From assembly GCF_006716065.1 (NCBI RefSeq), contig NZ_VFOL01000001.1, forward strand, positions 4,588,001 to 4,652,000: DNA of 64,000 bases, written 5' to 3'. The translations under genes and the position numbers were made by a program. Each line of letters opens with the position of its first letter. The first letter of the stretch is position 1. Shown here one piece after another: positions 21,798-43,101 of this stretch. Source of the stretch: Salinispora arenicola (GTDB taxonomy: Bacteria > Actinomycetota > Actinomycetes > Mycobacteriales > Micromonosporaceae). The notes under the pieces were generated by a model. That model was not told the DNA's origin, ran no database searches, and saw only the letters and a program-made list of their open reading frames with translations.

Positions 21798-24074
<2,277 letters not shown>

Positions 24075-26023: not shown

Positions 26024-26094
26024 GAGATCACCCTCGTCCGAACCACCCTCGTTCAAACAGATGGATTCATGCCGGGGTGCGGTAGATTTCTGCC

Positions 26095-28629: not shown

Positions 28630-28733
28630 GGTGGTTTCCTTCCGGTTGCAGGGCAGGTTCCGCCGGGCCACCCGCCGCCGGGACACGGCGGGTGGCCCCA
28701 CGGTGGGCACGGAGGCGGCCCCCGGCTGTCCGG

Positions 28734-29153
28734 TCAGGCGGGCGCGTACTCCACGAGTTCGACCAGCAGGCTGCTGGGATGGCGCAGGTAGAGGAACCGC
28801 ACCCGCATTCCGGGGCGAGCGCCCGGGTGGGGCCGGTCGTCAACGGAGCTGAACCCCTCGCGGCGTAGGCGGTTCACCTCGGCGTCGAGCTGGTCGACGC
28901 GGAAGGCGACGTGGTGCAGCCCCGGCCCCCGGGTGGCCAGGTGACGGGTGACGGTGGAGTCGGACGCCAACGGTGAGACGATCTCCACGGCGGGCTGGGT
29001 GCGCCGCCGCGGGTCACTCCAGAACTGGCAGCCGACCTGGTAGGTGAGGGCGACACCGGCATCGGTGTGGGACAGCCCCAGGGCCGCCAGAGGGCCGGCG
29101 AGGGCGGCGGGTTCGTGGGTGGCCAGGCCGATGTGGTCGATTCCGATAATCAT
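28734..29153 (-). CDS. VOC-superfamily protein (methylmalonyl-CoA epimerase-like)
   Basis: A 139-residue single-chain vicinal oxygen chelate protein with two paired modules. Metal ligand candidates are the His in [12 protein letters not shown], the His in [15 protein letters not shown] and the Glu in [11 protein letters not shown]. The arrangement matches methylmalonyl-CoA epimerase/glyoxalase relatives, but several VOC functions would look the same. The ATG at 29153 gives the canonical start [11 protein letters not shown]. It is divergent from the hydrazine-locus operon across a 418-bp region. Confidence 0.82.
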
Positions 29154-29571
29154 GACAGCACCGGTCCCCGGCCTTGGTGGCATGTCCGGCACCGATAGTC
29201 GTCCGGCCACGACCGAAACGGGCAGCCGACGAATCGGCCCACCGCCGCGCGGAGCGAGTCCAGGGTGGGCACAACGACATTCATACGTGCTGAGTCTAGG
29301 GACGACAATGCTGAGCGTCGAGCGGATCAGGGTAGCGCCACGACTGATTGTCCGGCCTCTGACTACCAGTTGTTCGTACGCACTGACGGGCACTCCTCGA
29401 CCACAAAACAAGGGGCACCGAAACGGCTGGTACGACTCATCCGCCACCTGCGTGTGAAACATCTGCAGGTACGACTGATTTCGTTGGCCCACCCGTTGTG
29501 TGCGCCGATTCCCACCGATAGACCTGGGTCCCATCGCTATTCACCGCCGGACGAGACCCGGAAGGAACGAG
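29154..29571. promoter_or_regulatory. Divergent regulatory region in front of the hydrazine locus
   Basis: No gene is seen here. Three near-identical direct elements ACGACTSAT occur at 29340, 29432 and 29471, in one orientation. The last two are embedded in longer matching GGTACGACTSAT repeats 39 bp apart. These may be activator sites for the KASIII-FkbH-ACP operon. GGAAGGAA at 29561-29568 is the ribosome-binding site of the KASIII-like gene. Confidence 0.45.
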
Positions 29572-30603
29572 ATGAGTCGCGATCCAGTTCAGTTCGGAAT
29601 CCGAAACTTCGGGTACGCGTTCGGAGAGGACCAGGACGTGGCGCAGGTCGCCGGCGACTACGTCGACGACCCGGAGCGGATCATCCGGTGGGGTTACCGC
29701 ACCTTCCATCGGGCACCGGAAGGCGTCACCGCGACGGACCTCGCAGCCGACGCCGCCCGCAAGGCACTCGCCGGGGCCGACCTGGCCGCCGACGACGTGG
29801 ACCTGATCGTCCTGGCCACCTCCGAGATGCCCGAGTACCCGCACTGGGACTCCTCGGCGGCGTTGGCCCGCAAGCTCGGCCGTACGAGGGCCCAGACGCT
29901 CCTCCTCACCGAGGGCTGCGCGTCGGGGGTCACCGGACTGGGCGTCGTCGCCGGGCTGATGGCCGTCCAGCTGGAGATCAACACGGTGTTGTTCGTGGCC
30001 GTCAACCGGGTCAGCGAGTTCCACCGCAACCGGATGAAGGTCAACAACGCGGTGCACAGCGACGGGGCGGTGGCCGCGGTGCTGCACCGGGGGCACCCGC
30101 GCAACCGGTGGCTGGCAACCGACCAGTTCACCGACCCGGACCTGTGTGACTGGTTCCGCACCGACTACGGCGGGGCGGTGGCGCCCGTCCCGCCGCCCGG
30201 CTGGACCAGCACCATCGCCCCCGCCGGTCACGAGCGGGTGCAGGCGCACTTCGACAAGGACCCCCGTCGGCTCGGGGACTTCGTTGACCTACTCAATCAC
30301 CGTGTCGTCGAGGTCATCGAGGGGGCGTGCCGGCGTGCCGGGGTCGACCGAGACGCGGTGTCACACATCATCTACATCAACGACAGCCCCGATGCCATCG
30401 ACGACATCACCGCCCCGTTCGCGCTGCCTCGCGAGCGCAGCAACGCCGCGCTCGCCGTGGTACACGGCCACATGGGGGCGGCCGACCAGTTGGTCAGCCT
30501 CGGTCAGCACCTCGAACGCGGCGATCTCGCCGAGGACGATGTCGTGGCCATGGCCGGCATCTCGATCGGGATGCGCTGGTACTGCACCCTGGTCCGGGTC
30601 TGA
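29572..30603 (+). CDS. KASIII-like (FabH-fold) acyl transferase/condensing enzyme
   Basis: A 343-residue thiolase-fold protein. The nucleophile is in LLTEGCASGVTGL (Cys116), and the N-terminal half DLAADAARKALAGADL...DVDLIVLAT is standard FabH. The usual His and Asn motifs (HQAN and GNTSAAS) are not present as such: the corresponding places read HIIYINDSPDAID and VVHGHMGAADQL. The triad is therefore non-canonical, as in KASIII homologues that transfer acyl groups to O or N nucleophiles rather than making C-C bonds. It overlaps the FkbH gene (TGATG), with the ACP next, so its acyl donor is presumably glyceryl-ACP. This resembles the FkbH/ACP/KASIII trio of tetronate pathways, though the acceptor here is unknown. 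The start ATG has GGAAGGAACGAG upstream. Confidence 0.85.
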   Translation: MSRDPVQFGIRNFGYAFGEDQDVAQVAGDYVDDPERIIRWGYRTFHRAPEGVTATDLAADAARKALAGADLAADDVDLIVLATSEMPEYPHWDSSAALARKLGRTRAQTLLLTEGCASGVTGLGVVAGLMAVQLEINTVLFVAVNRVSEFHRNRMKVNNAVHSDGAVAAVLHRGHPRNRWLATDQFTDPDLCDWFRTDYGGAVAPVPPPGWTSTIAPAGHERVQAHFDKDPRRLGDFVDLLNHRVVEVIEGACRRAGVDRDAVSHIIYINDSPDAIDDITAPFALPRERSNAALAVVHGHMGAADQLVSLGQHLERGDLAEDDVVAMAGISIGMRWYCTLVRV

Positions 30604-32480
30604 TGACGGCCGCGGAGCAGGCCGTCGCGCTGGCGATGGACGAGGTGGACGTGTGGAACGGTGTCCGCGAAGCGGTACACACCAACCAGTACCCGGATGC
30701 CCGGCTACGGACGCGACTGCTGCGGGAACGCGACCCGGTGCTGCTGCGCCGGGTGGGCAGACTGCTCGACCGACCGGAGTTGGTCGGCGACGACCTGCGT
30801 CCGATTCGGGTCAGCGCGCTCGCCCCGTTCACGATCGGGTCGTTCACCGACCTACTACGGGCGTACCTGGTCGGCGCCGGCCTCGCCCCGACGCTACAGG
30901 TCGCCCAGTACGGTTCCTTCGACCTGGCGCTGGCCACCGGGGAGTTCCCGGTACACCAGCCGGATCTGGTGGTGTTGCTGCTCGACGAGTCGGTGTTCCT
31001 ACCGACGGTGTGGTCTCCCGCCGACGTCGACGACCTCACCGAGCAGGTTCAGCGACGGCTGGACGACTTCTGCTCGGCCGTGACGACTAGCGCCGCCGAC
31101 GCGACAGCGCCGGTGGTGCTGCACACGGTGCCGCTGCCGGCCGAGGTGCGTGACTCGTTCATCGCGGCACGGGACCGGGCGGTGGTGGCCGGCTGCTGGC
31201 ACCGCCTCAACGCGACGCTGCTCGACCTGTCCCGCCGGCACCCGCGAGTGCTCGCCGTAGACCTCGTCGGGGCGCTGGCGGACACACCCTTCGCCGTTCG
31301 CGACGATCGCCTGCACCGCTACGGTGACCTGCCCTACAGCGACGGCGCACTGTCCTGCCTGGCACGCGAGGTACGCCGGGTGGCGCAGGCCAGCACCGGG
31401 TCGTCCCGCAAGGTGCTGGCCCTCGACCTGGACAACACGCTGTGGGGCGGGGTTGTCGGCGAAGTCGGCGCCGAAGGGGTCACGCTCGGCGGCCTCTATC
31501 CCGGCAACGCCTATCGACAGGTGCAACGGGCCGCGCAGAGACTGCGCGAGCAGGGCGTGGTCCTGGTCCTGACCAGTAAGAACGACACCGCCGTGGCGAC
31601 TGACGCGATGATGTCTCACCCGGAGATGCTGCTGCGGCCCGATGCGTTCTCCTACCGTGCGGTCAACTGGTCGTCGAAGGCGGAGAACCTACGGGCGGCC
31701 GCCGCACACCTGGGGCTGTCCACCGCCGCGACGGTCTTCCTGGACGACTCGCCGTTCGAACGCGGCCAGGTGTCCGGCTCGCTACCGGAGGTGGCCGTCC
31801 TTCCGGCCGACGGCGATCCGGCTCGCCTGGTACGGACCCTGTTGGAGCCGGGTTGGTTCGACACCCTGGACCTGACCGAGACCGACCGCCGACGCCCGGA
31901 GCTGTACCGCGGCCGGGCCGAGCGCAGCACGTTCTCCACCGGCTTCGGCTCCTCGCAGGACTACCTGCGGGCCCTCGGCATCCACCTCGCCGTCGAGCCG
32001 GCGAACCGATACACCGCGGCGAGGGTGGCCCAACTGGCTGCCCGCACCAACCAGTTCAACCTCACCGGCGTGCGGTTCGACCAGCCCGCGACAACGGCGA
32101 TGGCAGCCGACCCGGGGTACCTGGTCGCTGCCTGCGCCGTCACCGACCGCTTCGGCGACGAGGGCGTCGTCGGCGCGGTCTGGGTGTGCCGCGGAGCACC
32201 TACCTGGGAGGTGCTGAACCTGGTCCTCAGCTGCCGGGTACTCGGCCGGGGGGTGGAGCTGGCGATCGTCGGGTGGCTGGTTCGACAGGCCCGGCTGGCC
32301 GGTGCCGCGGCGGTGGAGGGCCGGTACACGCCGACAGCGAAGAACGGTGCCGCACGCGACTTCTGGACCAGGGCCGGATTCACCGCGGTCACCGCGGAGC
32401 TCTACCGCCTGGACCTGCGTGGCGCCGACGACCCAACCCCCGATTGGATCAGCACAGAGGAGCCCCAGCAGCATGGATGA
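30603..32480 (+). CDS. FkbH-like glyceryl-ACP synthase (HAD superfamily)
   Basis: A 625-residue protein. The N-terminal ~260 residues are the SGNH-like part of long FkbH proteins. The HAD domain starts with VLALDLDNTLWGGVVGE (Asp275 and Asp277) and continues with VLTSKNDTAVA and FLDDSPFERGQV. The C-terminal ~150 residues resemble an acetyltransferase-like fold. FkbH enzymes dephosphorylate 1,3-bisphosphoglycerate and load a D-glyceryl unit on an ACP, and such an ACP follows here with an 8-base overlap. The FkbI/FkbJ/FkbK/FkbG partners needed for methoxymalonyl-ACP are absent, so glyceryl-ACP itself is probably used. Its start overlaps the KASIII stop, indicating coupled translation. Confidence 0.92.
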   Translation: MTAAEQAVALAMDEVDVWNGVREAVHTNQYPDARLRTRLLRERDPVLLRRVGRLLDRPELVGDDLRPIRVSALAPFTIGSFTDLLRAYLVGAGLAPTLQVAQYGSFDLALATGEFPVHQPDLVVLLLDESVFLPTVWSPADVDDLTEQVQRRLDDFCSAVTTSAADATAPVVLHTVPLPAEVRDSFIAARDRAVVAGCWHRLNATLLDLSRRHPRVLAVDLVGALADTPFAVRDDRLHRYGDLPYSDGALSCLAREVRRVAQASTGSSRKVLALDLDNTLWGGVVGEVGAEGVTLGGLYPGNAYRQVQRAAQRLREQGVVLVLTSKNDTAVATDAMMSHPEMLLRPDAFSYRAVNWSSKAENLRAAAAHLGLSTAATVFLDDSPFERGQVSGSLPEVAVLPADGDPARLVRTLLEPGWFDTLDLTETDRRRPELYRGRAERSTFSTGFGSSQDYLRALGIHLAVEPANRYTAARVAQLAARTNQFNLTGVRFDQPATTAMAADPGYLVAACAVTDRFGDEGVVGAVWVCRGAPTWEVLNLVLSCRVLGRGVELAIVGWLVRQARLAGAAAVEGRYTPTAKNGAARDFWTRAGFTAVTAELYRLDLRGADDPTPDWISTEEPQQHG

Positions 32481-32727
32481 CAAGACGAACATCGCCGACC
32501 GGGTTCGACAGATCGTCGCCGAAGTGCTCGACGAACCGGTCAGCGCCATGGACGCGAACCCTGTTCTCGCCGCCCACGAATGGGACAGCCGGGTATCGCT
32601 GGAGGCGCTGGCGCAGTTGGAGGCCGCGTTCGTGGTAGCCGTCGACCTGCGGTCGTTCCACGCGGCTCGGACGGTCAACGACCTGGTCGATCTCGTGATC
32701 CGGTCCCAGCCGACCCCGACCCGGTGA
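32473..32727 (+). CDS. Discrete acyl carrier protein
   Basis: An 84-residue carrier protein. The phosphopantetheine attachment serine is Ser39 in EWDSRVSLEALAQLE, preceded by a helix-I sequence IADRVRQIVAEVLD. It overlaps the FkbH gene by eight bases and is followed 25 bases later by the N-hydroxylase gene, so it belongs to the same operon. It is the expected acceptor of the glyceryl unit from the FkbH-like protein and donor for the KASIII-like protein. Confidence 0.9.
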   Translation: MDDKTNIADRVRQIVAEVLDEPVSAMDANPVLAAHEWDSRVSLEALAQLEAAFVVAVDLRSFHAARTVNDLVDLVIRSQPTPTR

Positions 32728-32752
32728 CCACCCGATTCCACCTGGAGGTGTC

Positions 32753-34048
32753 GTGGAACACGACGACGTGACCCTGCTTGCCGTCGGCGCCGGCCCCGCC
32801 AACCTGGCCCTCGCCGTCGCCCTGGAGGAACTCGCACCGGAGGTCGCCGCGGACACGCTCATCGTCGAGCAGTACGACAACGTGGTCTGGCAACGCGGGA
32901 TGCTGCTGCCCTGGACACAGAGCCAGGTCTCATTCCTCAAGGACCTGGTTACCCTGCGCAACCCGCGCAGCGAGTACTCGTTCATCAACTACCTGCACGC
33001 CGTACATCGACTCGACGACTTCGTCAACCTGGGCAGTTTCACCCCGTACCGCCTCGAGATCTCGCACTACCTGGCCTGGGTGGCCGAGCACCTGCGGCAG
33101 GTACGGATCGACTACGCACGCCGGTGTGTGGGCGTCGAGCCCCTGCGTGACGAACAGGGTGTGGTCAGCCGCTGGTCGGTGTCGTTCGCCGACGGCAGCC
33201 GTGTCGTCTGTCGAATCCTGGTACTGGGTGCGGGCCGGGACGTGCACGTGCCGGCCGAATTCGCCGGGCTGGCCCGCGAACGGGTCATCCACAGCACCGA
33301 GTACGCGTGGCGGGCCGAGGAACTCGATCCGACCACCCCCCACCGAATCGTGGTCGTCGGCGGCGCGCAGAGCGCCGCAGAGATGCTCTGGTCGGCGTAC
33401 CAGCGCTTCCCACAGGCCACCTGCACGATGGTGATGCGCTCCATCGGGCTCAACGCGTACGAGAGCAGCAAGTTCACCAACGAGCTGTTCTTTCCGTCCT
33501 TTGTGGACGTCTTTCACAGCGCTCGACCAGATGCCCGCGACCAGCTGTTACGGGAGATGCACCGGACGAACTACTCCGGGCTGGCCCCGGCCACACTGGA
33601 CATGCTGTACCGGGAGATCTACCTGGGCCGCCTGACCGGGCGGCAGCGCATCGACATGGTCACGATGTTCGACGTCGCCGACGCGGCGATGGACGGCGAC
33701 GAGGTCGCGCTGACGCTGTCGGACCGCCGTACCGGGGACAGCAGGGAACTGCGCTGCGACGTCGTCCTGCTCGGCACCGGATTCGCCCGTGGCGTGCCCC
33801 GTTTCGTCCAGGACCTGGCCGCCTCGGCCGGGGCCGGTGAGGTGACGGTCAACCGGCAGTACCGGTTGAACCTACCGCCGCAGGTCAGCGCCGCCTGCTA
33901 TCTCCAGGGTGTCAACGAGAGCACCCACGGAATCGCCGACTCCCTACTGAGCGTCCTGGCGGTGCGCAGTGAGGAGATCGTCTCCGACCTGCTCACCCAC
34001 CTGCTCGAGACCACCACCAAGCGGCCGACCGCCCTGGCCGGACGCTGA
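32753..34048 (+). CDS. Amino-acid side-chain N-hydroxylase (lysine/ornithine N-monooxygenase family)
   Basis: A 431-residue class B flavin monooxygenase. The FAD motif is LLAVGAGPANLALAVAL, the substrate/FAD segment is QVSFLKDLVTLRNPRSEYSF, the NADPH site is IVVVGGAQSAAEM and the C-terminal motif is VVLLGTGF. The family hydroxylates the terminal amine of L-lysine or L-ornithine with NADPH and O2. The cupin and MetRS-like genes immediately downstream are the signature partners in hydrazine synthesis. There the N-hydroxy-lysine is coupled to a second amino acid, so N6-hydroxylysine is the likelier product. CTGGAGGTG precedes the GTG start. Siderophore synthesis is an alternative but no NRPS or NIS synthetase is nearby. 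Confidence 0.92.
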   Translation: MEHDDVTLLAVGAGPANLALAVALEELAPEVAADTLIVEQYDNVVWQRGMLLPWTQSQVSFLKDLVTLRNPRSEYSFINYLHAVHRLDDFVNLGSFTPYRLEISHYLAWVAEHLRQVRIDYARRCVGVEPLRDEQGVVSRWSVSFADGSRVVCRILVLGAGRDVHVPAEFAGLARERVIHSTEYAWRAEELDPTTPHRIVVVGGAQSAAEMLWSAYQRFPQATCTMVMRSIGLNAYESSKFTNELFFPSFVDVFHSARPDARDQLLREMHRTNYSGLAPATLDMLYREIYLGRLTGRQRIDMVTMFDVADAAMDGDEVALTLSDRRTGDSRELRCDVVLLGTGFARGVPRFVQDLAASAGAGEVTVNRQYRLNLPPQVSAACYLQGVNESTHGIADSLLSVLAVRSEEIVSDLLTHLLETTTKRPTALAGR

Positions 34049-34063
34049 CCCGCGGAGGACCCG

Positions 34064-34438
34064 ATGGAGATTCGCCCCCTGGACCGCGCCAACCTCAGAC
34101 TGGACAACAACCTACGGGCACAGCGGCTCATGCCGTGGCCGACGGTCAACGCGCCCTTCGAAGGGTCCTGGTGCGTGGTGGCGCCCGGCGTCTCCTCCGG
34201 CGAGCACGGCCACCACGAGTACGAGATCTGGATCGCGATGACCGGCCGGGCCGAGCTCGTCAGTGACGGCGCGCGTCGGCCGTTCCACGCCGGTGATGTC
34301 GTCTACCTGCCACCGGGCAGCCGTCACCAGGTCGTCAACCCCACCGACGAACAGTTCCAGATGTACGCGGTGTGGTGGGACGCGGCCATGGTCGACCGTT
34401 TCGCGACCCGCCACGAGGCGGACGGCCATGACGGCTGA
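34064..34438 (+). CDS. Stand-alone cupin, putative N-N bond-forming half of a hydrazine synthetase
   Basis: A 124-residue single-domain cupin with both metal motifs intact. Motif 1 has His48, His50 and Glu54 in EHGHHEYEIW; motif 2 is GDVVYLPPGSRH with His88. In characterised hydrazine synthetases (Spb40 and Tri28 families) a cupin domain is fused to a MetRS-like domain and rearranges an aminoacyl ester of the N-hydroxy amino acid to form the N-N bond. Here it is a separate gene that overlaps the MetRS-like gene by 11 bases. GCGGAGGA lies before the ATG, and it sits 15 bases after the N-hydroxylase. The functional call rests on the gene trio rather than on unique residues. Confidence 0.85.
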   Translation: MEIRPLDRANLRLDNNLRAQRLMPWPTVNAPFEGSWCVVAPGVSSGEHGHHEYEIWIAMTGRAELVSDGARRPFHAGDVVYLPPGSRHQVVNPTDEQFQMYAVWWDAAMVDRFATRHEADGHDG

Positions 34439-36038
34439 CCCGCACCGACCGGCCGTCATCATCGCCGCGACCCCGACTCCCAACGGTGACCTGCACCTGG
34501 GCCACCTCGCCGGGCCGTACCTCGCCGCCGACGTCTACGCCCGCCACCTGCGCATGTCGGGTCGCCCCGTGGTCTACACCACGTGCACCGACGACAGCCA
34601 GAGCTACGTGCTGACCACCGCACGCCGACAGGGGGTGCCACCTCGACGTCTGGCGGCCACCGCCGCCACAGCTATCGCCCGCTCGCTGGACGCCGTCGGG
34701 ATCTCCACCGCGGGGCTCCCCCCGACCGGCGACACCTACCGCGGCACGGTGCTCGACTTCGTTGGCCAACTGCATGCGGCGGGCCGGTTCCGACAGCGCC
34801 GCGTACGGCTGCCGTACGCCCGCCACGCGGGGATGTACCTCTACGACGGGCTGCTCTCCGGCACCTGCCCGACCTGCCTGTCGGACAGTTCCGGTGGGGT
34901 CTGTGAGGCGTGCGGACATCCGAACACCTTCGACGACCTGTTGGATCCTCGGTACAGCCTCGATCCGGACGACCCGGTGGAGCCGCGGGTCGCCGACGTC
35001 CTCGTGCTGCCTGCGGAGGACTACCGGGGTCGGCTCGCCGAGTACTACGCGCGGCACACGCCGCGGTGGCGCCCGCACGCGCGGCGGCTCGTCAACGAAC
35101 TACTCGCCCGGCCGCTACCTGACATCCCGGTCACGGTACCGGGCAGTTGGGGCATCCCCGCGCCGTTCGCGCAGACCCCGGGGCAGGTCCTCTATCCGTG
35201 GATCGAGGCGATGCCCGCCTCGATCTACAGCACCTGGTGGTCGCGCTCGCCGCGGGGCGCCACCGGCGGGAACGTCGACGCCCCGTGGCGGGCCGAGACG
35301 GACACCGAGCTGGTCTACTTCCACGGATACGACAACGTGTACCACTGGGGCCTGGTCGATCTGGTCCTGTTGTTGGCGCACGGTGATCGGTACGTGCTGC
35401 CCGCGGCGAATGTGTGCAACGAGTTCTACGAACTGGCTGGAGCCAAGTTCTCCACCAGTCGCGACCACCTGGTGCACGCACCCGAGGTCCTCGCCGAGGT
35501 ACCCCGGGATCTGTTGCGCTTCTACCTGGCGCTGACCGCCCCGGAGTACCAGCGATCCACGTTCGACCGGGCGGCCCTGCCCTCGGTGACGCAGACCCGG
35601 CTGGTCGAGCCATGGAACCGTCTCTCCCGGGCCCTCGACCGGGCACTCGACGCGTCATCCATGCCGGCCCGGCTGCCCACGGACGAGGCTGGCCGGCGCC
35701 GCGCCGCCATCGTCGCCGACCGCTTCCGCACCTGGTACGGACTGCCGGAGTTCAGTATCCGCCAAGCAGCCGACACGCTCAGCACGCAGGTCGATCGGCT
35801 GGCCCGGCAGGCAGAGGTGCTCACCGGGGATCCGACCGACACCGGTGGCCTCGTGGTGCAGGTCCGCGCACTCCTCGCCGGCGCCGCTCCGCTGCTGGTC
35901 GATACCGCGGCAGCCGCCGCCGCGTCCGGTTGGGAGAGCGGCGACGCCACCGCGCCGTCGACCACCGTCGCCGCCCTGCGCCTGCCACCACTGGCCGGTG
36001 TCCGCGCACCGCAGGACGGACGCCTACCGGTGCGGTGA
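34428..36038 (+). CDS. MetRS-like adenylating enzyme, putative hydrazine synthetase subunit
   Basis: A 536-residue class I aminoacyl-tRNA-synthetase-like protein. The HIGH signature is HLGH (residues 23-26) in PTPNGDLHLGHLAGPY. A zinc-knuckle-like insert has CPTC...CEAC, and a KMSKS equivalent reads KFSTS (Lys340). The C-terminal anticodon-binding region is only partly recognisable and lacks a tRNA-binding OB domain, so this is not housekeeping methionyl-tRNA synthetase. In hydrazine synthetases this domain activates the second amino acid (glycine in Spb40) and esterifies it to the N-hydroxylated lysine for the cupin. The ATG at 34428 lies inside the cupin gene (11-base overlap), which argues for an equimolar complex of the two chains. 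Confidence 0.88.
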   Translation: MTADPHRPAVIIAATPTPNGDLHLGHLAGPYLAADVYARHLRMSGRPVVYTTCTDDSQSYVLTTARRQGVPPRRLAATAATAIARSLDAVGISTAGLPPTGDTYRGTVLDFVGQLHAAGRFRQRRVRLPYARHAGMYLYDGLLSGTCPTCLSDSSGGVCEACGHPNTFDDLLDPRYSLDPDDPVEPRVADVLVLPAEDYRGRLAEYYARHTPRWRPHARRLVNELLARPLPDIPVTVPGSWGIPAPFAQTPGQVLYPWIEAMPASIYSTWWSRSPRGATGGNVDAPWRAETDTELVYFHGYDNVYHWGLVDLVLLLAHGDRYVLPAANVCNEFYELAGAKFSTSRDHLVHAPEVLAEVPRDLLRFYLALTAPEYQRSTFDRAALPSVTQTRLVEPWNRLSRALDRALDASSMPARLPTDEAGRRRAAIVADRFRTWYGLPEFSIRQAADTLSTQVDRLARQAEVLTGDPTDTGGLVVQVRALLAGAAPLLVDTAAAAAASGWESGDATAPSTTVAALRLPPLAGVRAPQDGRLPVR

Positions 36039-36072
36039 TCCCGTCCCACCAACCGTCGACTCGGAGAGCCCG

Positions 36073-37317
36073 ATGAAACTCCTCACCATCGAAACCCAGC
36101 AGTACCTCTCGTACTACATTTCCCGCTACCAGCAGGTCGAGGCGTTCGGTGTCGACCTGTACGTGCTCAACGGAGAGGGCACGCACGACTTCTGGCCGTC
36201 GGAGCGGTATCGCCTGGTCGGGTCGAAAAAGATCGACGACATCGTCGCCCAGGCCCGTCGGTGGCACGCCGAGGAACAGTTCGACGGCGTGATCACATTC
36301 TCGGAGTCGGCCGTCGTCACGGTGGCCGTGGTGGCCGAAGCCCTGGGCCTGCCCGGAATCCCGGTCGAGGCCGCCGTGCGCAGTCGCAACAAGTACCTGA
36401 TGCGACGAGCATACGAGGAAGGGGGCGTACCGGTTCCCCGTTACCGGCTGGTCGAGTCGGTGGGCGAGGCCCTCGCCGGGGGCGCCGAGTTCGGCTACCC
36501 GCTGATCATCAAACCCACCATGGGAGCGGGCAGCCACTTCGTCTTCCGAGTGGACGACGCCCGTGCGTTGGAACGCCGGTATGTGCAGGCGGCGGCCGGA
36601 ATCCAGGACATGTTCTGGGCGACGTCCGAGGCCGACGGCATCGATCTCGGCCCGCAGGGCCTGCTGGTGGAGTCCTTCCTCGATGGGCGCGAGTATCTGA
36701 TCGAGGCGTTGGCCTGGGACGACGAGCTCTACCTCGGCTCGGTGGTGGACCGGATCACCGTCGAGGGTGGCACCTTCGACGACGATGTCCATCACGCGCC
36801 CACCTCGTTGCCCGCCGAGGACCTGGCCAAGGTGCACCGTGTGGTGGCGGCCGCAGCCCGGGCCCAGGGTCTGCACCGCAGCGTCATGCACGCGGAGGTG
36901 CGGTTCCACCAGGGCGAGCCGCACCTGCTGGAGATCGCCGCCCGGGTCGGCGGCGGCGGGTTGGACCAGATCGCCCGACTGACCGCCGAGTACGACCCGA
37001 TCCGTGCTGTGGTCGACGTTGGTCGGGGGGTCAGACCCGTGGTGCGACACTATCGCCCGACCGGCACCCACATCGCCGCGATGTGTCTCATCAGCGATGC
37101 GGGCGTGGTCGAGCAGGTGCACGTGCCGCCGGAGGTCAGCACCTCCGACAAGGTGTTCCTGTTGAAGATCACCGCTCGGCCGGGTGACCTGATCCGCCGC
37201 CCCCCTGACGGCAACACCATCCTCGGCTTCCTGGGCACGACCGGACGCTCCGAGGCAGAGGCCAGGTCCACCATGAACGAATTCGCTTCCAAGATCACGG
37301 TTCGGTTCACCCGCTGA
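36073..37317 (+). CDS. ATP-grasp ligase (amino acid/peptide ligase type), first copy
   Basis: A 414-residue ATP-grasp enzyme. Lys/ATP-binding strands are YPLIIKPTMGAGSHFVFRV and LLVESFLDGREYLIEAL, and the metal site is MHAEVRFHQGEPHLLEIAARVGGGGLDQI. The N-terminal pre-ATP-grasp domain starts MKLLTIETQQYLSYYI. The family couples a carboxylate, activated as acyl phosphate, to an amine, for example L-amino-acid ligases. It follows the MetRS-like gene by 34 bases with GGAGAG before the ATG. Probable role: joining the hydrazino-amino acid, or an amino acid, to another unit of the product; substrates cannot be read from sequence. Confidence 0.88.
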   Translation: MKLLTIETQQYLSYYISRYQQVEAFGVDLYVLNGEGTHDFWPSERYRLVGSKKIDDIVAQARRWHAEEQFDGVITFSESAVVTVAVVAEALGLPGIPVEAAVRSRNKYLMRRAYEEGGVPVPRYRLVESVGEALAGGAEFGYPLIIKPTMGAGSHFVFRVDDARALERRYVQAAAGIQDMFWATSEADGIDLGPQGLLVESFLDGREYLIEALAWDDELYLGSVVDRITVEGGTFDDDVHHAPTSLPAEDLAKVHRVVAAAARAQGLHRSVMHAEVRFHQGEPHLLEIAARVGGGGLDQIARLTAEYDPIRAVVDVGRGVRPVVRHYRPTGTHIAAMCLISDAGVVEQVHVPPEVSTSDKVFLLKITARPGDLIRRPPDGNTILGFLGTTGRSEAEARSTMNEFASKITVRFTR

Positions 37318-37410
37318 CCCGCTGACCCGGCGCCACCGGCCGCTTTCCCTCACTCGGCACCGGCAGGCCCGCCACGTCCGCCGGAGCGGACCCCGCTTCA
37401 GGGAGCACGC

Positions 37411-38247
37411 ATGTCCACACCCACCGCTGTCGTGCCACCAGCCCCTCGTTTCCGTCCCCGTCGATACCTGATGTGCCCACCGACCCACTTCACCGTGACG
37501 TACTCGATCAATCCCTGGATGGATCCGGCAAAGCCCACCGACACCGCCCTCGCCGTCGCCCAGTGGGAGCGGCTGCGCCGCCTACTCGTCGGCCTCGGCC
37601 ACCGGGTGGACCTCATCGAGCCCGAACCACTGCTGCCGGACATGGTTTTCGCTGCCAACGGCGCCACCGTCGTCGCCGGTCGGGTGCTCGCCGCCCGGTT
37701 CCGCCATCCGCAGCGCGCCGCCGAGGCCCCCGCCTACGCGTCGTGGTTCCGGGCACATGGGTACCAGGTCCACGAGGCGACGCACGTCAACGAGGGCGAA
37801 GGCGACTACCTCGTCACCGGCACCAGGATCCTCGCCGGCAGTGGCTTCCGCACCGACGCGGCGGCGCATGCCGAAGCGCAACGAGCGCTGGGCCGTCCGG
37901 TCGTCGGTCTCGAACTGGTCGACCCCCGCTTCTACCACCTGGACACGGCGCTGGCGGTGCTGGCCGACGACGAGATCATGTACTACCCGGAGGCGTTCTC
38001 GGCCCACAGCCGTCGCCTGCTCCAGGAGTTGTACCCGGACGCCGTCACCGCCACCGAGGAGGACGCGCTCGTCTTCGGCCTCAACGCCGTCTCCGACGGG
38101 CACCACGTCGTCCTCTCCGCCCAGGCGGTCGGGCTGGCCGCACGGCTGGCGGCCCGCGACTACGTGCCGATCGACATTGAGCTGTCCGAGTTGCTCAAGT
38201 CCGGTGGCGGCGCGAAGTGCTGCACGCTGGAGGTGCGGGATCGATGA
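37411..38247 (+). CDS. Dimethylargininase/amidinotransferase-fold (DDAH-like) hydrolase
   Basis: A 278-residue guanidino-modifying enzyme. The N-terminal signature is MCPPTHFTVTYSINPWMDP. Acidic ligand candidates are in LLPDMVFAANGA and NEGEGDYL, the catalytic His is in PRFYHLDTAL (His176), and the nucleophile is in GGGAKCCTLEVRDR (Cys270/271). DDAH and related actinobacterial enzymes hydrolyse arginine-type guanidines to citrulline or ornithine-type products. In this operon it may process an arginine- or N-substituted guanidino intermediate, or supply an amino-acid precursor. Its stop overlaps the next gene's start (ATGA), so it is integral to the operon. The substrate is inferred, not seen. 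Confidence 0.85.
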   Translation: MSTPTAVVPPAPRFRPRRYLMCPPTHFTVTYSINPWMDPAKPTDTALAVAQWERLRRLLVGLGHRVDLIEPEPLLPDMVFAANGATVVAGRVLAARFRHPQRAAEAPAYASWFRAHGYQVHEATHVNEGEGDYLVTGTRILAGSGFRTDAAAHAEAQRALGRPVVGLELVDPRFYHLDTALAVLADDEIMYYPEAFSAHSRRLLQELYPDAVTATEEDALVFGLNAVSDGHHVVLSAQAVGLAARLAARDYVPIDIELSELLKSGGGAKCCTLEVRDR

Positions 38248-38627
38248 GCGCGGCACCGACCAGCTATCACGGACGGCGGTTCCGTCCGGTGGCCGACGGC
38301 ACGGGGGAACACACCCGGACGGCCCACTACTTCCAGGACGGCGACCTGTTGTGGGGCGAGTTCACCGGGGGCCACGCCCGTCGTGGCACGCTGGCCGGCC
38401 GGTGCCGGCCCGACGGTTCCCTCGACTTCGCCTACTGCATGGTCCTCGACGACGGCCGGATCATCTCCGGCCAGTGCCGCAGCACCCCGCAGCTCCTGCC
38501 CGACGGACGCGTGTTGCTGCACGAGGTGTGGCAGCGGTTCGGGGAGCACGCCGCCAGCGGCACCTCCCGGATCGAGGAAATCCCGACGGCTGCACCATCC
38601 GACACCCCACCAGGAGCACACCGATGA
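38244..38627 (+). CDS. Small beta-rich protein of the 'N-acetylglutamate synthase-like' family
   Basis: A 127-residue protein with repeated beta-strand pairs: YHGRRFRPVADG, HYFQDGDLLWGEFTGGHARRGTLAG, LDFAYCMVLDDGRIISGQCRSTP and DGRVLLHEVWQRFGEHAASGTSRIEE. Small proteins of this sequence type are often auto-annotated as N-acetylglutamate synthase, but they have no GNAT motif and no demonstrated activity that I know of. A lipocalin-like barrel is plausible. It overlaps its neighbours by ATGA on both sides and so is translated with the DDAH-like enzyme and the binding protein. Confidence 0.75.
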   Translation: MSAAPTSYHGRRFRPVADGTGEHTRTAHYFQDGDLLWGEFTGGHARRGTLAGRCRPDGSLDFAYCMVLDDGRIISGQCRSTPQLLPDGRVLLHEVWQRFGEHAASGTSRIEEIPTAAPSDTPPGAHR

Positions 38628-40429
38628 CCTCGTCCCTACCGGTCCTCACCGGCGACGACACACGCCCGCACCGGGGTGGCACGGTGACCTGGGCGTGCGC
38701 GCCCGGTTTCCCACCCGCCGTGATCTTCCCCTTCACGCCCGCCGAACGGATGGGCACCCGCAACATCTACGAGTTCCAGATGCTGATGTACCGCCCGCTG
38801 TACTACTTCGGCAGCAAGGGCACCCCAGAGGTCGACTACGAGCAGAGCATCGGCGAGCCACCGCGGTGGAGCGACGACGGGCTCACCGTCCGAATCCGGA
38901 TCAAGCCGTGGAAGTGGTCCAACGGCGAGACCCTCTGCGCGGACAACGTGCTGTTCTGGGTGAACCTGATGAAGGTCAAGGGCGACCGTTACGGCGAGTA
39001 CGTCCCGGGCTACTTCCCGGACAACTGCACCGACTACGGCAGGGATGGTGAGGACAGCGTCTGGTTCACCTTCGACAAGCCGTACTCCCGCAAGTGGGTC
39101 CTGATGAACCAGCTCAGCACCATCACCCCGCTACCCCGGGCGTGGGACCGGACCGCCGACGGACCGGCCAACGCCTCCCGCGGCCTGACCGACGTCGCCT
39201 CGGTCTACGACTACCTGATGGCCGAGCAGGGCGACATCGTCGCGGAAAGCAACCAGCATCGCACTCGCTGGGCCGACAGCCCTGTCTGGAGCGTGGTCGA
39301 CGGCCCCTGGCGGCTGAAAAGCTACACCCTGGAGGGAGTCGTCACCTTCGTGCCCAACCAGCACTACTCCGGGCCGAATCGGCCCTATGTGGACGAGTTC
39401 CGACAGGTGCCCACCATGTCCGACGACGAGGAGTACCGCATGCTCCAGGCCGGGCCGCGAGGCCCGGACTCCGTTCAGGTCGGGTACCTGCCACTGAGCT
39501 TCACCACCGAGCCGACCGACGATCCCACCCGAGGTGGGGCCAACCCGCTCGCCCCGGACTATCGGCTGGTGCCTCAGGTCGCGTTCTGCATCCGGTACTT
39601 CTGCCTGAACTACAACAACCCGACCGTCGCCGGGCGGATCTTCACCCAGACGTACTTCCGGCAGGCGTTACAGTGCACCCTGGACCAGGACTCGGCGGTC
39701 CGCGACATCTACCACGGATACGCGTACCGGCAGAACGGTCCGGTGCCGATGGTGCCGGCGACCGACCTGGTCTCCCCACGGCAGCGTGCCGGCGCCTGGC
39801 CGTTGCCGTTCGACCCGGACCGGGCCCGCCGACTACTACAGGACAACGGCTGGGACACCAGCACCACACCGGCGGTGTGTGTCCGGCCCGGTACCGGTCC
39901 CGGCGCGGCCGGCGCGGGTATCCCCGCCGGCACCCGGCTCAGCGTCCTGCTCCGGTACGTGGAAGGTCGGCCAGCGCTGACCCGGCTGATGACCACCTTC
40001 CAACGCGACGCCGCCACCGCCGGGATCGAGATCCGGTTGGAGGAGGTGTACGGCTCCGTCCTGGTGGCTGAGGACGCACCCTGCGTGCCAAGTCCGGACA
40101 CCCCCTGCCGGTGGGAGATGTGCTGTTGGAACGGCGGCTGGGCCTACCACCATCCGACCGGCGAGATCCTCTTCCGCACCGACGCCGGCGGCAACTTCGG
40201 CCACTGGAGTGACCCTGTTACCGACGAACTCATCGAACGCACCGTCACCAGCGACGACCCGGCCGTCCTGTACGAGTACCAGGACCACATCGCCGAACAG
40301 GTCCCGGTCATCTTCACCCCCAACTTCCCGATCCGCCTCTTCGAGGTCTCCAGTGACCTGAGGGGATTCGAACCGGTCAACCCGTTCGGAATGATCAACC
40401 CGGAGAACTGGTACTACGTCGACCAATAG
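38624..40429 (+). CDS. Oligopeptide-binding (SBP family 5) protein without signal peptide, second copy
   Basis: A 601-residue family 5 solute-binding protein. GGTVTWACAPGFPPAVIFPF is the family start and lies 17 residues from the initiator. Other family features are RWSDDGLTVRIRIKPWKWSNGETLCADNV, TQTYFRQALQCTLDQDSAVRDIYHGYA and LTRLMTTFQRDAATAGIEI. There is no signal peptide, lipobox or adjacent permease. The protein is rich in cysteines for an exported binding protein (at least nine, for example CIRYFC, CRWEMCCW). The overlapping ATGA start and CCAGGAG box fix the N terminus, so a missing signal sequence is not a start-site error. A cytoplasmic binding or enzymatic role in the pathway is inferred. 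Confidence 0.85.
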   Translation: MTSSLPVLTGDDTRPHRGGTVTWACAPGFPPAVIFPFTPAERMGTRNIYEFQMLMYRPLYYFGSKGTPEVDYEQSIGEPPRWSDDGLTVRIRIKPWKWSNGETLCADNVLFWVNLMKVKGDRYGEYVPGYFPDNCTDYGRDGEDSVWFTFDKPYSRKWVLMNQLSTITPLPRAWDRTADGPANASRGLTDVASVYDYLMAEQGDIVAESNQHRTRWADSPVWSVVDGPWRLKSYTLEGVVTFVPNQHYSGPNRPYVDEFRQVPTMSDDEEYRMLQAGPRGPDSVQVGYLPLSFTTEPTDDPTRGGANPLAPDYRLVPQVAFCIRYFCLNYNNPTVAGRIFTQTYFRQALQCTLDQDSAVRDIYHGYAYRQNGPVPMVPATDLVSPRQRAGAWPLPFDPDRARRLLQDNGWDTSTTPAVCVRPGTGPGAAGAGIPAGTRLSVLLRYVEGRPALTRLMTTFQRDAATAGIEIRLEEVYGSVLVAEDAPCVPSPDTPCRWEMCCWNGGWAYHHPTGEILFRTDAGGNFGHWSDPVTDELIERTVTSDDPAVLYEYQDHIAEQVPVIFTPNFPIRLFEVSSDLRGFEPVNPFGMINPENWYYVDQ

Positions 40430-40605
40430 CCGCCGGGCGACGTGTCGTCGGTAACCGTGGCGCCGGTGCCCACCGCCGGCAGATCGGCGGTACCGACCGA
40501 AGGAAGCGGGTTGGTCACACCGATGGCCCCACCGGGTGCCTCGACCACGACGGGTACCGCCCACGCCGAGGTTCCCCGCTGATCCCCATACGTCAGGAGT
40601 CCGCG

Positions 40606-41868
40606 ATGCACACCGCACCGACCGATCACCGTCCCCGGCTGTTGCTGGTGGCCAGCGGCATGCGCCCGTACCGGGAGTACCTGCTCGCGTCGATCGCCAC
40701 CGCCTACCGCGTCCACCTGTTCCACAGCGCCGACCCCGGCTGGGAGCGGCCCTACCTCGACGGCTGGACCGTCCTCGGTTCCACCATCGACGGTCCGGCG
40801 ATGGCGGCAGCCGCTCGACCGCTCCATCGGGAGGAACCGTTCGCCGGGGTGCTGTGCTGGGACGAGGGTCGCATTCACGCCACCTCCTCCGTCGCCGCGG
40901 AACTCGGCTGTCGCAACGGCGACCCGACGGTGGTCTGGCGGCTGCGGGACAAGGCCCAGACCCGGCAGGCGCTCGCCGCCGCCGGCGTACCCCAGCCGCA
41001 GTCGGTGCCGGTGAACTCCGTGCAGGAGGCCCTGCTGGCCGCCGCGGCGATCGGCTACCCGGTGATCCTCAAGCCCCGCGGGCTCGGCGCCAGCCTGGGA
41101 GTGGTCCGGGTCGACGATTCCGACGGCCTACGCCGGTTGTTCCCGTTCACCCACGGCACGACAGCACCTGACCCGGTCCAGTACAGCACGGACGCTCCGG
41201 TCCTGGTCGAGCAGTGCGTCTGCGGGACGGAGGTCAGCGTCGACGCGGTGGTGACCGATGGGCAGGTGGTGCCCCTGTTCGTGGCCCGTAAGAAGGTCGG
41301 CTACCCGCCGTACGCCGAGGAGGTCGGGCACCTGGTGGATGCGGCGGACCCGTTGCTGCACGACGGCGCCTTCGTCGACCTGCTCCAACGGACCCACGGC
41401 GCCCTGGGCTTCCGGGACGGCTGCACCCACACCGAGTACATGCTCACGGAGGACGGCCCGCAGTTGATCGAGGTCAACGGTCGACTGGGTGGGGACATGA
41501 TCCCGTACCTCGGGAAGCTGGCCACCGGCGTGGACCCCGGTCTGGTCGCGGCCGCGGCGGCGTGCGGCCTGCCGCCGCGGACCGTACCCACGCGTCGACG
41601 GGTGGCGGGGGTGACCTTTTCCTACGTGGATTCGGACGACACCACCGTCACGTCGGTGACCATAGATCACGCACGGCTTCCGCCGACCGTGGACCACGTG
41701 GTGACGCTGGTGTCCGCCGGTCAGGTGGTCTCACCGCCGCCGAAGGGCACCGTGTGGGGGCGGATCGCCTACGTCACGGCAGTGGCCGACACCTGGCAGG
41801 AGTGTCAGGCCGCGCTCGATGCGGCGACCAGGGCCGTGGCTTTCACTCGACATGAGAAACGGCGATGA
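40606..41868 (+). CDS. ATP-grasp ligase, second copy
   Basis: A 420-residue ATP-grasp protein. The N-terminal domain starts RPRLLLVASGMRPYREYLLASI. ATP-binding segments are YPVILKPRGLGASLGVVRVDD and VLVEQCVCGTEVSVDAVV, and metal-ligand residues are in THTEYMLTEDGPQLIEVNGRLGGD. The C-terminal segment (TVDHVVTLVSAGQVVSPPPKGTVWGRIAYVTA) is the extra domain seen in carboxylate-amine ligases of the BacD/carnosine-synthase kind. GTCAGGAGT precedes the ATG; the 176-bp gap behind the binding-protein gene may hold a promoter. With the first ATP-grasp enzyme it suggests two amide or hydrazide bonds in the product. Confidence 0.88.
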   Translation: MHTAPTDHRPRLLLVASGMRPYREYLLASIATAYRVHLFHSADPGWERPYLDGWTVLGSTIDGPAMAAAARPLHREEPFAGVLCWDEGRIHATSSVAAELGCRNGDPTVVWRLRDKAQTRQALAAAGVPQPQSVPVNSVQEALLAAAAIGYPVILKPRGLGASLGVVRVDDSDGLRRLFPFTHGTTAPDPVQYSTDAPVLVEQCVCGTEVSVDAVVTDGQVVPLFVARKKVGYPPYAEEVGHLVDAADPLLHDGAFVDLLQRTHGALGFRDGCTHTEYMLTEDGPQLIEVNGRLGGDMIPYLGKLATGVDPGLVAAAAACGLPPRTVPTRRRVAGVTFSYVDSDDTTVTSVTIDHARLPPTVDHVVTLVSAGQVVSPPPKGTVWGRIAYVTAVADTWQECQAALDAATRAVAFTRHEKRR

Positions 41869-41904: not shown

Positions 41905-42417
41905 ATGACTGACCCGGTAACCCATCTCGCGGCCCTGGGTGCGGTACCCCCCGACTACCGACACCGGCCGAAGCGGGCCGATCCGGGGCCGCCGCTGCTC
42001 CTTCCCGACGCCTGCCTGAAGTGGTACGACGTGCACGACATCGGGGACGGCGTCCCCGGTAGCGTCCGCGACGCCGCTCGGAACTTCGTCCGCCGCCAGG
42101 CCGGCTCGGACGCACTCGACATCTCCGGCGCACTGGGCTTCGCCATCCTGCACCGATGCGACGGCGACCTGTACTACCTGGACGTCTGCACCTGGCGACA
42201 CGCCAACGAGTTGTGGGAGTCGGTCTACACCGCCGACCCGGACGCCGGCGGCGCCTTTCGCCGACACCGATCCACCGGACACGTCGAGATCGGCTGTGTA
42301 TGGGAACTCGGTGTGGTGCGGCACGAGGTGCAGGCGTGGACGGCGTTTCTCGACTCGGCCCGCGACGAGCCGGCCAAGGTTGCCTACCTGGCCGACCAGC
42401 TCACCGGCCAGGTCTGA
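41905..42417 (+). CDS. Conserved-looking protein of unknown function
   Basis: A 170-residue soluble protein I cannot assign. It is Trp- and Asp-rich, with DACLKWYDVHDIGDGVPG, GFAILHRCDGDLYYLDVCTWRHANELWES and RSTGHVEIGCVWELGVVRHEVQAW. No membrane segment or signal peptide is seen. Composition and codon use resemble its neighbours. It lies 36 bases behind the second ATP-grasp gene on the same strand and is convergent with the FMN-barrel gene three bases away, so it is the last gene of the operon. The aromatic-rich beta pattern suggests a small ligand-binding or cyclase-like fold, but this is only an impression. Confidence 0.7.
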   Translation: MTDPVTHLAALGAVPPDYRHRPKRADPGPPLLLPDACLKWYDVHDIGDGVPGSVRDAARNFVRRQAGSDALDISGALGFAILHRCDGDLYYLDVCTWRHANELWESVYTADPDAGGAFRRHRSTGHVEIGCVWELGVVRHEVQAWTAFLDSARDEPAKVAYLADQLTGQV

Positions 42418-42420
42418 CGG

Positions 42421-43101
42421 TCAGCCGCGCCCCGGCCAGGTGCCCGGCAGGTCCGCGACGTGGCGTGGCACCGGTGTGCCGACCGGCAGCGCCGGGTCGG
42501 GCACCGGCGTGCCGAACCCGGTGAGCACCGGCAGTTCACCCGCCCACCGGCCGTCACGGGCGTCGGCGCTGTCCGCGTCGTCCGGCCCTCCGCTGCGGAC
42601 CTTGACCGACGCCTCGCCCAGGGAGAGGGCCCACAGGCGGGTAGCCGCCAGCTCCCGCCGGTTGGGTTGCCGGGCGTAGTCCCACTGCCCCGGGGCGACA
42701 TGCTCGGTGATCAGGCGCAGCGCGGCGAGCTTCTCGGTGTCGTCGGTGACGTCACCCGGCCTGCCGTAGATCATCGCACTGCGGTAGTTGACGGAATGCT
42801 CGAACACCGAGCGTGCGAGCACCACACCGTCCAGCACCGTGACCGTGACGCAGACCTCGTCGGGTGGACCGGCGAGGGATCGGCTGGCCACCGACCCGTG
42901 CAGGTAGAGGGTGTCGGGGTCGTAGCCGTAGACGGTGGGCACCACCATGACGACGCCCTCCACGACCACCCCGAGGTGACACACGAAGCCGGCGGCGAGG
43001 ACGTCGAGCAGTGCCTCCCGTCGGCCACGTGCCTTCTCGCGCCCACGCCGCAGGCGGGTGCGGGGCGTGCCGGACAACGGTGGACCGACGGCGCCGGTCA
43101 C
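42421..43101 (-). CDS. Pyridoxamine 5'-phosphate oxidase-related FMN-binding split-barrel protein
   Basis: A 226-residue flavin-barrel protein. RGRREALLDVLAAGFVCHLGVVVEGVVMVVPTVYGYD opens the barrel, followed by DTLYLHGSVASRSL, VCVTVTVLDGVVLARSVFEHSVNYRSAMIYGRP and a C-terminal helical region WALSLGEASVKVR. The group is related to NimA/Fmn-dependent oxidoreductases of unknown natural substrate. It starts at GTG 43101, overlapping the upstream MmcQ/YjbR-like gene as GTGA; the open frame further upstream is a shadow of that gene. Confidence 0.82.
   Translation of the reverse strand: MTGAVGPPLSGTPRTRLRRGREKARGRREALLDVLAAGFVCHLGVVVEGVVMVVPTVYGYDPDTLYLHGSVASRSLAGPPDEVCVTVTVLDGVVLARSVFEHSVNYRSAMIYGRPGDVTDDTEKLAALRLITEHVAPGQWDYARQPNRRELAATRLWALSLGEASVKVRSGGPDDADSADARDGRWAGELPVLTGFGTPVPDPALPVGTPVPRHVADLPGTWPGRG

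Follow-up and report, generated by a model that had tools for sequence, protein, structure and literature searches.

A widespread hydrazine synthetase-type gene cluster of Salinispora arenicola with stand-alone ligases and an optional glyceryl module

What product is assembled by a gene cluster in which enzymes of the kind that join two nitrogen atoms stand beside amino acid ligases, a glyceryl loader and a solute-binding protein (SBP) with no export signal? The question is raised by a 64,000-nucleotide stretch of Salinispora arenicola (GCF_006716065.1, NZ_VFOL01000001.1, positions 4588001-4652000; genome 5.63 Mb, single contig), hereafter the window, whose numbering is used for all gene coordinates. 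Twelve plus-strand genes, all of them open frames, run head to tail here from 29572 to 42417. They include genes for a flavin-dependent ornithine/lysine N-hydroxylase (NMO), a zinc cupin and a protein resembling methionyl-tRNA synthetase (MetRS), a trio that we take with high confidence to be a hydrazine synthetase cassette.

The NMO-cupin-MetRS trio and its conserved neighbourhood

In characterised pairs, the MetRS-like part esterifies an N-hydroxy amine with an amino acid and the cupin rearranges the ester to form the N-N bond, as described in the available text of PMC11705231 and PMC8664883. The three window genes are contiguous (32753-36038). The metal ligands of the cupin (H48, H50, E54, and H88) are present in 74/74 aligned sequences, and their spacing equals that of PyrN (H50/H52/E56/H90) and RHS1 (D63/H65/E69/H103; residues of both from the accessible part of PMC8664883). 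The MetRS-like enzyme keeps its HIGH- and KMSKS-type motifs (H23/H26 and K340-F-S-T-S) and the four Zn-knuckle cysteines in all three clades of the tree described below; a canonical MetRS is encoded elsewhere in the genome (479 bits), which holds two MetRS paralogues besides. The solved structures closest to the NMO are PvdA (3s5w, 260 bits), MbtG (231) and KtzI (209), and its residues K63, N243, N273, and S400, which we take to bind the amino acid, are found in 80/80 homologues. PDB 4rd7, to which the cupin is identical and which is presumably itself a S. arenicola protein, names its molecule only as 'Cupin 2 conserved barrel domain protein' and gives no function. Because of the Pfam and PDB matches, the intact metal ligands, the MetRS motifs and the published precedents, we assign the trio to the hydrazine synthetases. 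The original prediction, which had done the same and had held that a cupin or MetRS-like protein of some non-hydrazine family would speak against it, is borne out: the residues of the hydrazine families are kept in both. The genome has a second locus of hydrazine synthetase type, at C1:233968-242000 (L002, L033). It encodes an NMO (318 bits), a DAO-family oxidase (117 bits) and a MetRS-like frame of 1066 aa and also shows a cupin match; several of its genes have relatives in G077.

Homologous loci were collected by scanning named genomes with a MetRS alignment (A1, without G065, which has an in-frame TGA), and the best 80 of 116 were kept, so that MetRS is present by construction; the window genes were compared with the 80 loci by tblastn. 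Co-occurrence was counted in the 57/80 loci that are fully flanked (at least 21 kb, ~10 kb on each side), 23/80 loci of less than 21 kb being left out. These figures describe relatives of the window MetRS, related genomes are counted more than once, Fisher p-values ignore relatedness, genes past the 10 kb flanks are scored absent, and counts of the DDAH-like gene may take in copies outside the cluster.

The NMO accompanies the MetRS-like gene in 57/57 flanked loci, and NMO, cupin and MetRS-like genes occur together in 55/57, the 57 having been chosen by MetRS. Individual counts are 57 for NMO, 56 for ATP-grasp ligase 2, 55 for the cupin, 54 for a small barrel protein, 37 for the DDAH-like enzyme, 32 for ATP-grasp ligase 1, 23 for the SBP, 20 for a DAO-family oxidase, and 7 each for a KASIII-like enzyme (KAS, for ketoacyl synthase) and FkbH. 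A search for clusters conserving all of the predicted genes, proposed with the original prediction, finds the eight-gene core NMO-cupin-MetRS-ATPgrasp1-DDAH-barrel-SBP-ATPgrasp2 in 21/57 loci. Seven of these 21 also carry KAS, FkbH and acyl carrier protein (ACP) genes: Saccharothrix luteola (L053), Amycolatopsis sp. (L055), Streptomyces (L057 and L065), Actinomadura xylanilytica (L058), Winogradskya humida (L064) and, rearranged, Streptomyces dysideae (L076). KAS and FkbH are found together in 13/80 loci and in 7/7 flanked loci having either (Fisher p 3.8e-9). The SBP occurs with ATP-grasp 1 in 23/23 SBP-containing loci (p 6.5e-9), and the DDAH-like gene in 28/32 loci with ATP-grasp 1 compared with 9/25 without it.

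A quick maximum likelihood tree of the MetRS-like enzymes has 82 rows (the window, 78/80 loci and 3 outgroups on long branches), with no named hydrazine synthetase among them; L078 and L081, the latter one of the 13 KAS-containing loci, have no MetRS frame of at least 380 aa. The remaining 12 loci with KAS and FkbH all fall with the window in clade A, which has 26 rows and an SH-aLRT of 97; over the whole tree there are at least 6 state changes. Truncated FkbH genes lie directly upstream of NMO in L062 and L074, the latter also with a shortened KAS lacking the active-site Cys, and L054 retains the ACP alone, without KAS and FkbH; these remnants and the lone ACP indicate losses of the glyceryl module. 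The MetRS pocket region is fixed in the 25 loci of clade A (Y256, P257, W258, E260, P263, Y267, N303, and W307); clade B shares W258, E260, Y267, N303, and mostly W307, with N-A at 256-257, and clade C is more divergent. Across the genus, 151/151 genomes match the MetRS query, mostly through the canonical enzyme, and only 6, the source genome included, do so at 44% identity or more. The gene set is no chance juxtaposition, as its order recurs in other actinomycete genera and its genes co-occur. The single pathway that had been predicted is supported by synteny and co-occurrence across actinomycete loci and by the confinement of the glyceryl module to one MetRS clade.

A commoner sister cluster type (L093-L128 in clade C, with G055, G065, and G102) often reads NMO-cupin-MetRS-DAO-ATPgrasp2-small-BBE oxidase. 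Such clusters, from Streptomyces, Nocardia, Frankia, Lentzea, Amycolatopsis, Actinomadura and others, have no SBP of the window type and a different MetRS pocket.

Proposed glyceryl transfer and ornithine supply, and a binding protein without export signal

The original prediction had a KASIII/FkbH/ACP trio supply a glyceryl thioester. The FkbH/ACP loader stands: FkbH matches TIGR01686 and keeps D275-L-D-x-T-L-W-G-G among its near-invariant positions, and the ACP carries its phosphopantetheine serine, S39, within a near-invariant W-D-S motif (14 sequences for each). The reading of the KASIII is corrected. C116, H300, and D305 are present in 14/14 KAS sequences, with a His-to-Asp spacing of +5; the ChlB3 triad is C113/H296/D301 in the available text of PMC9573744. 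The match to ChlB3 (7eqi) covers the full length of the protein, but its score is only 45 bits. Because the Cys-His-Asp triad is that of the ChlB3/CerJ acyltransferases, its probable reaction is the transfer of glyceryl to an O or N atom, not the formation of a C-C bond. A FabH-type KASIII, with a Cys-His-Asn triad for C-C bond formation, was considered and ruled out: aligned to 8vd9, the window protein retains Cys116 but has Ile269 and His300 where FabH has its His and Asn, and in 14/14 sequences position 269 is Ile or Leu and position 300 His. Domain families were assigned by Pfam/NCBIfam to the window proteins between 19.7 and 49.7 kb, minus some small frames, and no modular polyketide synthase, which a tetronate pathway would have beside the trio, was found among those scanned.

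Outside the cluster, KAS homologues occur in 8/394 class genomes besides the source (E <=1e-40, 38-57% identity). By tblastn, none of the 8 has window genes around it, save for an ATP-grasp gene in one, and in both neighbourhoods annotated by Pfam (L178, L181) the KAS adjoins an ACP and an AMP-ligase. Judging from these two loci, the same KAS-type acyltransferase may take different acyl units depending on its loader, FkbH in the window. At L178:1153-18037, a KAS 57% identical to that of the window lies with genes for a chorismate-binding enzyme, AMP-ligases, an ACP, an aldehyde dehydrogenase, an adenylosuccinate lyase-like protein and ATP-grasp enzymes.

The DDAH-like enzyme, whose family is present in 196/200 genomes of the same taxonomic family, bears on the substrate of the NMO. 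In the source genome, the match of a housekeeping DDAH paralogue (C1:2617375-2618157) and that of a homologue of RocD, ornithine aminotransferase (C1:2616157-2617326, 474 bits), lie 48 bp apart on one strand. The window enzyme is identical to this RocD-linked paralogue at 28/28 inspected positions, 26/28 of which do not vary among 18 copies from clade A, and this suggests ornithine as its product. The original prediction had named lysine as the N-hydroxylated partner. Its N-hydroxylase class holds, and ornithine is the likelier substrate because the DDAH paralogue lies beside RocD and PvdA is the closest solved NMO, neither amino acid being proven. The two ATP-grasp ligases are confirmed, with PF13535 above cut-off in both; as for the L-amino acid ligase domains (ATP-grasp_4 and LAL_C2), ligase 1 has both above cut-off, and in ligase 2 LAL_C2 reaches 28.7 bits against a cut-off of 29.4.

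The SBP belongs to family 5, its modelled fold is of the NikZ/AppA type (mean pLDDT 80), and it is 57-82% identical to 23 relatives. It is the core protein with the highest best-segment identity in 17/25 SBP-containing loci (17/18 in clade A, 0/7 outside). Matches with E <=1e-60 occur in 22/394 class genomes; besides the source, only G477 has one above 42% identity, encoded in a cluster of the same type. The window and G477 copies lack an export signal, their hydropathy peaking at 1.30 and 1.21, and no signal-like stretch is seen in the listed set of 18 longer cluster copies or in alignment A3 (the window with 23/24 listed SBPs). Distant homologues differ: the N-terminus has a hydrophobic stretch (1.55-2.96) in 23/23, and the part of it shown contains a lipobox-type Cys in 22. 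The binding protein had been described as signal-less from the outset, which the window copy and its cluster relatives confirm, and we predict it to be cytosolic. The neighbouring small protein is modelled as an avidin-like barrel (alignment A2: the window with 36/59 listed small proteins). In the sister clusters, SBPs of family f22 have a lipoprotein-type signal in some cases and seemingly none in others (L123, L124, L127 versus L098, L101; start codons uncertain). SBP export may therefore have been lost repeatedly.

Proposed pathway, rival explanations and extent of the cluster

On balance, the cluster probably makes an N-N-bonded (hydrazine) amino acid peptide without nonribosomal peptide synthetase (NRPS) modules, in seven steps. 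Arginine would be converted to ornithine by the DDAH-like enzyme (step 1), and the NMO, a class assigned by homology, would hydroxylate a side-chain amine, N5 of ornithine being likelier than N6 of lysine (step 2). By homology to characterised hydrazine synthetases, the MetRS-like enzyme would adenylate a second amino acid and esterify it onto the N-hydroxyl, and the zinc cupin would rearrange the ester to the N-N bond (step 3). The DAO-family FAD enzyme may then oxidise or cleave one C-N bond, like Spb39/Apy10 (step 4), and the two ATP-grasp ligases, to judge from their family, would amide-link one or two amino acids (step 5). Glyceryl, loaded onto the ACP by FkbH, could be moved by the ChlB3/CerJ-like KAS to an OH or NH of the product (step 6); we regard it as an optional cap because many relatives are without the module. 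The cytosolic SBP-fold protein and the avidin-like barrel may bind or shield a reactive intermediate or the product (step 7). The M1/M20 peptidases and the amidohydrolase would be compatible with a peptide-like product. More tentatively, and with doubt prevailing, the cluster could stand for a new natural-product class, glyceryl-capped N5-amino-ornithine-type hydrazine peptides made by stand-alone ligases, in which an SBP fold moved to the cytosol, as enzyme or as carrier/shield, would be an essential biosynthetic part alongside the avidin-like barrel.

Several points weigh against this pathway. While the hydrazine core is strong, we infer the substrates, the order of ligation, the glyceryl acceptor and the product. 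The pocket residues of the MetRS-like enzyme do not by themselves name the amino acid taken, for which an eight-residue code has been published. The NMO family does not separate ornithine from lysine, MbtG, which acts on lysine, being only 29 bits behind PvdA. NCBIfam names the DDAH-like protein a dimethylargininase of the M. tuberculosis type (NF045659, 432.9 bits; cut-off 300), the ArgZ models stay below cut-off (NF052232, 203.8 versus 450 bits; NF052231, 206.6 versus 1025), and the available text of Aravind et al. (PMC2922099) calls dimethylargininase-type genes citrulline-generating. The DAO gene is 6 kb away from the core. Of the 23 SBP-containing flanked loci, 2 are without the DDAH-like gene, 16 without KAS/FkbH and 7 without the DAO gene within the ~10 kb flanks, and in 8/25 SBP-containing loci the SBP is surpassed in conservation by some other core protein. 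The association of the small barrel with ATP-grasp 2, both near-universal, is not significant in the 57 flanked loci (p 0.053).

The DDAH-like enzyme could instead act late, on an arginine-containing intermediate from an ATP-grasp ligase, with lysine as the NMO substrate. Its gene directly follows ATP-grasp 1 in most clusters drawn and tracks that ligase, and where ATP-grasp 1 is missing, 16/25 loci lack DDAH as well while keeping the same NMO family; the 28 inspected positions identical to the RocD-linked paralogue point to free arginine, and we consider late action unlikely. In a pathway of the pyridazomycin type, the nitrogens of N5-hydroxyornithine and of a second amino acid would enter a pyridazine or other N-N heterocycle, and glyceryl would give ring carbons instead of a cap. 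Ornithine, oxaloacetate and glycine are believed to be the precursors of pyridazomycin and N5-hydroxyornithine a probable intermediate (available text of PMC7347517), and the window offers a C3 loader and an NMO closest to PvdA. This route is nevertheless improbable: the KAS triad is one of acyl transfer and not the FabH type used for C-C bonds, two ATP-grasp ligases and the peptidases would be unaccounted for, and no gene-cluster paper for the compound was found among the open-licence literature naming it.

That the NMO serves a hydroxamate siderophore, the cupin and MetRS-like proteins being unrelated or regulatory, had been raised with the original prediction as a way for it to fail, and the NMO is indeed near siderophore NMOs. 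We give this almost no weight, since NMO, cupin and MetRS-like genes stay together in nearly all flanked loci (again chosen by MetRS), the SBP is a signal-less family 5 protein, and the scanned proteins between 19.7 and 49.7 kb include no siderophore genes: no NRPS-independent siderophore (NIS) synthetase, NRPS or hydroxamate acyltransferase. Trios of FkbH, KASIII and ACP are typical of tetronate pathways, and 50/57 flanked hydrazine loci are without one, as would fit a trio that belongs to a separate tetronate or other polyketide pathway and lies upstream by chance. Such an arrangement is very unlikely when the trio is restricted, in the MetRS tree, to clade A (the window plus 12 loci), mostly directly upstream of NMO, when the SBP accompanies it in 7/7 flanked loci, when truncated FkbH remnants lie upstream of NMO in L062 and L074, and when the KAS triad is not of the FabH type. 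The hydrazine peptide with an optional glyceryl cap is the reading we retain.

By its gene content, the cluster is longer than the predicted 29572-41868, running to about 49.0 kb with the FAD oxidase and peptidases, and flanking genes lie on both sides (Table 1). The genes named in the original prediction are all there; the small barrel gene at 38244-38627, the flanking genes and the homologous clusters in other genomes had been overlooked. The DAO-family oxidase has matches in 25/80 loci, 24 of them on genes of family f14, which adjoin or lie near KAS or NMO in several clusters. Members of the M1 peptidase family (45402-47969) likewise adjoin KAS or NMO, or lie not far off, in several further clusters, and the order of the permease, AraC, M20 and VOC genes (24638-29192) is common to the two Winogradskya clusters. 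On the minus strand, adjoining the cluster and probably outside it, are a peroxidase-family gene of catalase-peroxidase size (21798-24074) and an FAD aromatic hydroxylase (19710-21143). A LuxR-type response regulator (49001-49723, minus strand) just past the DAO gene is a possible cluster boundary or regulator.

Table 1 Genes of the cluster and its flanks, in window coordinates
Gene product	Coordinates	Strand	Evidence and occurrence
Amino acid permease, accessory	24638..26056	-	PF13520 92 bits; family f38 also in L064, L066, L069 (shared by the Winogradskya clusters)
AraC-type regulator with DJ-1/PfpI domain, accessory	26095..27135	+	PF12833 78 bits, PF01965 51 bits; family f24 in 10 loci including the window
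M20 peptidase, accessory	27247..28710	-	PF01546 105.5 bits; family f35 in L062, L064, L066, L074 and the window
VOC/glyoxalase-like protein, accessory	28734..29192	-	PF13669 55 bits; adjoins KAS or is one gene off in L053, L064, L066
KASIII-like acyltransferase, ChlB3/CerJ type, proposed glyceryl transferase	29572..30603	+	Triad C116/H300/D305; full-length PDB match ChlB3 7eqi 45 bits
FkbH-type glyceryl transferase/phosphatase	30603..32480	+	TIGR01686 262 bits, cut-off 146.65
Acyl carrier protein	32473..32727	+	PF00550 35.4 bits
Flavin-dependent ornithine/lysine N-hydroxylase (NMO)	32753..34048	+	PF13434 286 bits
Zinc cupin, putative N-N bond-forming step	34064..34438	+	124/124 residues identical to PDB 4rd7; RHS1 5uqp 44 bits
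MetRS-like amino acid adenylating/esterifying enzyme	34428..36038	+	PF09334 201 bits
ATP-grasp amino acid ligase 1	36073..37317	+	PF13535 63.4 and PF18603 48.0 bits, both above cut-off; L-amino acid ligase 3vot 109 bits
DDAH/arginine dihydrolase-like hydrolase, proposed ornithine supply	37411..38247	+	NF045659 432.9 bits; ArgZ Sll1336 6jv0 173 bits
Small avidin-like beta-barrel protein	38244..38627	+	
SBP fold, no export signal, predicted cytosolic	38624..40429	+	
ATP-grasp amino acid ligase 2	40606..41868	+	PF13535 59.8 bits, above cut-off; PF18603 28.7, cut-off 29.4; 56/57 flanked loci
Protein without Pfam match, loosely linked	41905..42417	+	5/80 loci
YjbR-like protein, accessory	43098..43529	-	PF04237 31.1 bits, cut-off 30.1; 17/80 loci
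NIPSNAP-like protein, accessory	43567..43920	-	PF07978 20.1, below cut-off 22.3; 7/80 loci
Amidohydrolase, accessory	43955..45340	-	PF01979 158 bits; 5/57 flanked loci, each with SBP
M1-type aminopeptidase, accessory	45402..47969	+	PF01433 127 bits; 8/57 flanked loci, each with SBP
FAD-dependent DAO-family oxidase, candidate for hydrazine C-N oxidation	47972..48994	+	PF01266 71.5 bits, cut-off 27.9

Comparison with known systems

The original prediction knew of no described pathway with this combination of genes. No product assigned to the gene set was recognised in the open-licence literature searched, so that part stands; the gene types themselves were given in 2010 for the neighbourhoods of MetRS paralogues. 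In its available text, Aravind et al. 2010 (PMC2922099) lists a cupin, a lysine N6-monooxygenase, ATP-grasp enzymes, periplasmic-type binding proteins, dimethylargininase, ACP and acyl-condensing enzymes in these neighbourhoods, reports three MetRS paralogues in S. arenicola, and predicts a Met-Lys peptide ligase. The source genome has two paralogues, and its strain therefore need not be theirs. The same text neither states that a single neighbourhood unites all of these types nor mentions an N-N bond, FkbH or glyceryl, a cytosolic SBP, a barrel or figures for co-conservation.

Natural products with an N-N bond are uncommon and frequently bioactive, and biocatalysis has a demand for enzymes able to form such bonds. 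The split into clades A, B, and C gives further putative hydrazine synthetases with differing amino acid pockets, the structure 4rd7 gains a candidate function, and with so many named strains carrying the cluster a producing host may be found. The signal-less SBP, the best-conserved part of most clade A clusters, raises the question of whether such folds can be intracellular enzymes or carriers.

Part by part, the cluster resembles several known systems. The KSIII-like acyltransferases ChlB3 and CerJ (PMC9573744, available text) likewise have a Cys-His-Asp triad and take the acyl group from an ACP; the loader in the window is FkbH. The DDAH-like enzyme matches the arginine dihydrolase ArgZ/AgrE and actinobacterial dimethylargininase in sequence, with N83 and C270 conserved, but lies within a biosynthetic cluster and does not reach the ArgZ cut-offs. 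The clavulanic acid cluster pairs OppA-type oligopeptide-binding proteins with an ATP-grasp ligase, as the window does with its SBP, although those proteins are exported. Actinopyridazinone biosynthesis by Apy9/10/11 uses a non-lysine N-hydroxy amino acid, a MetRS/cupin enzyme and an FAD oxidase, as we propose for the window, but with 2,4-diaminobutyric acid (DABA) and Ala, and the available text of PMC11705231 does not mention an ATP-grasp/FkbH/SBP set. Spb40, Tri28, PyrN and the split pairs (RHS1 with its MetRS, and Afn8/Afn9) combine a MetRS-like part and a zinc cupin with an NMO and have the ligand spacing seen here, in the available text of PMC11705231 and PMC8664883; likened to these by description and residues, the window differs in its stand-alone genes and in adding ATP-grasp ligases, DDAH, SBP, barrel and glyceryl module. 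The cluster is a widespread variant of hydrazine biosynthesis, its neighbourhood gene types known since 2010; its glyceryl module is optional and its signal-less binding protein unusual.

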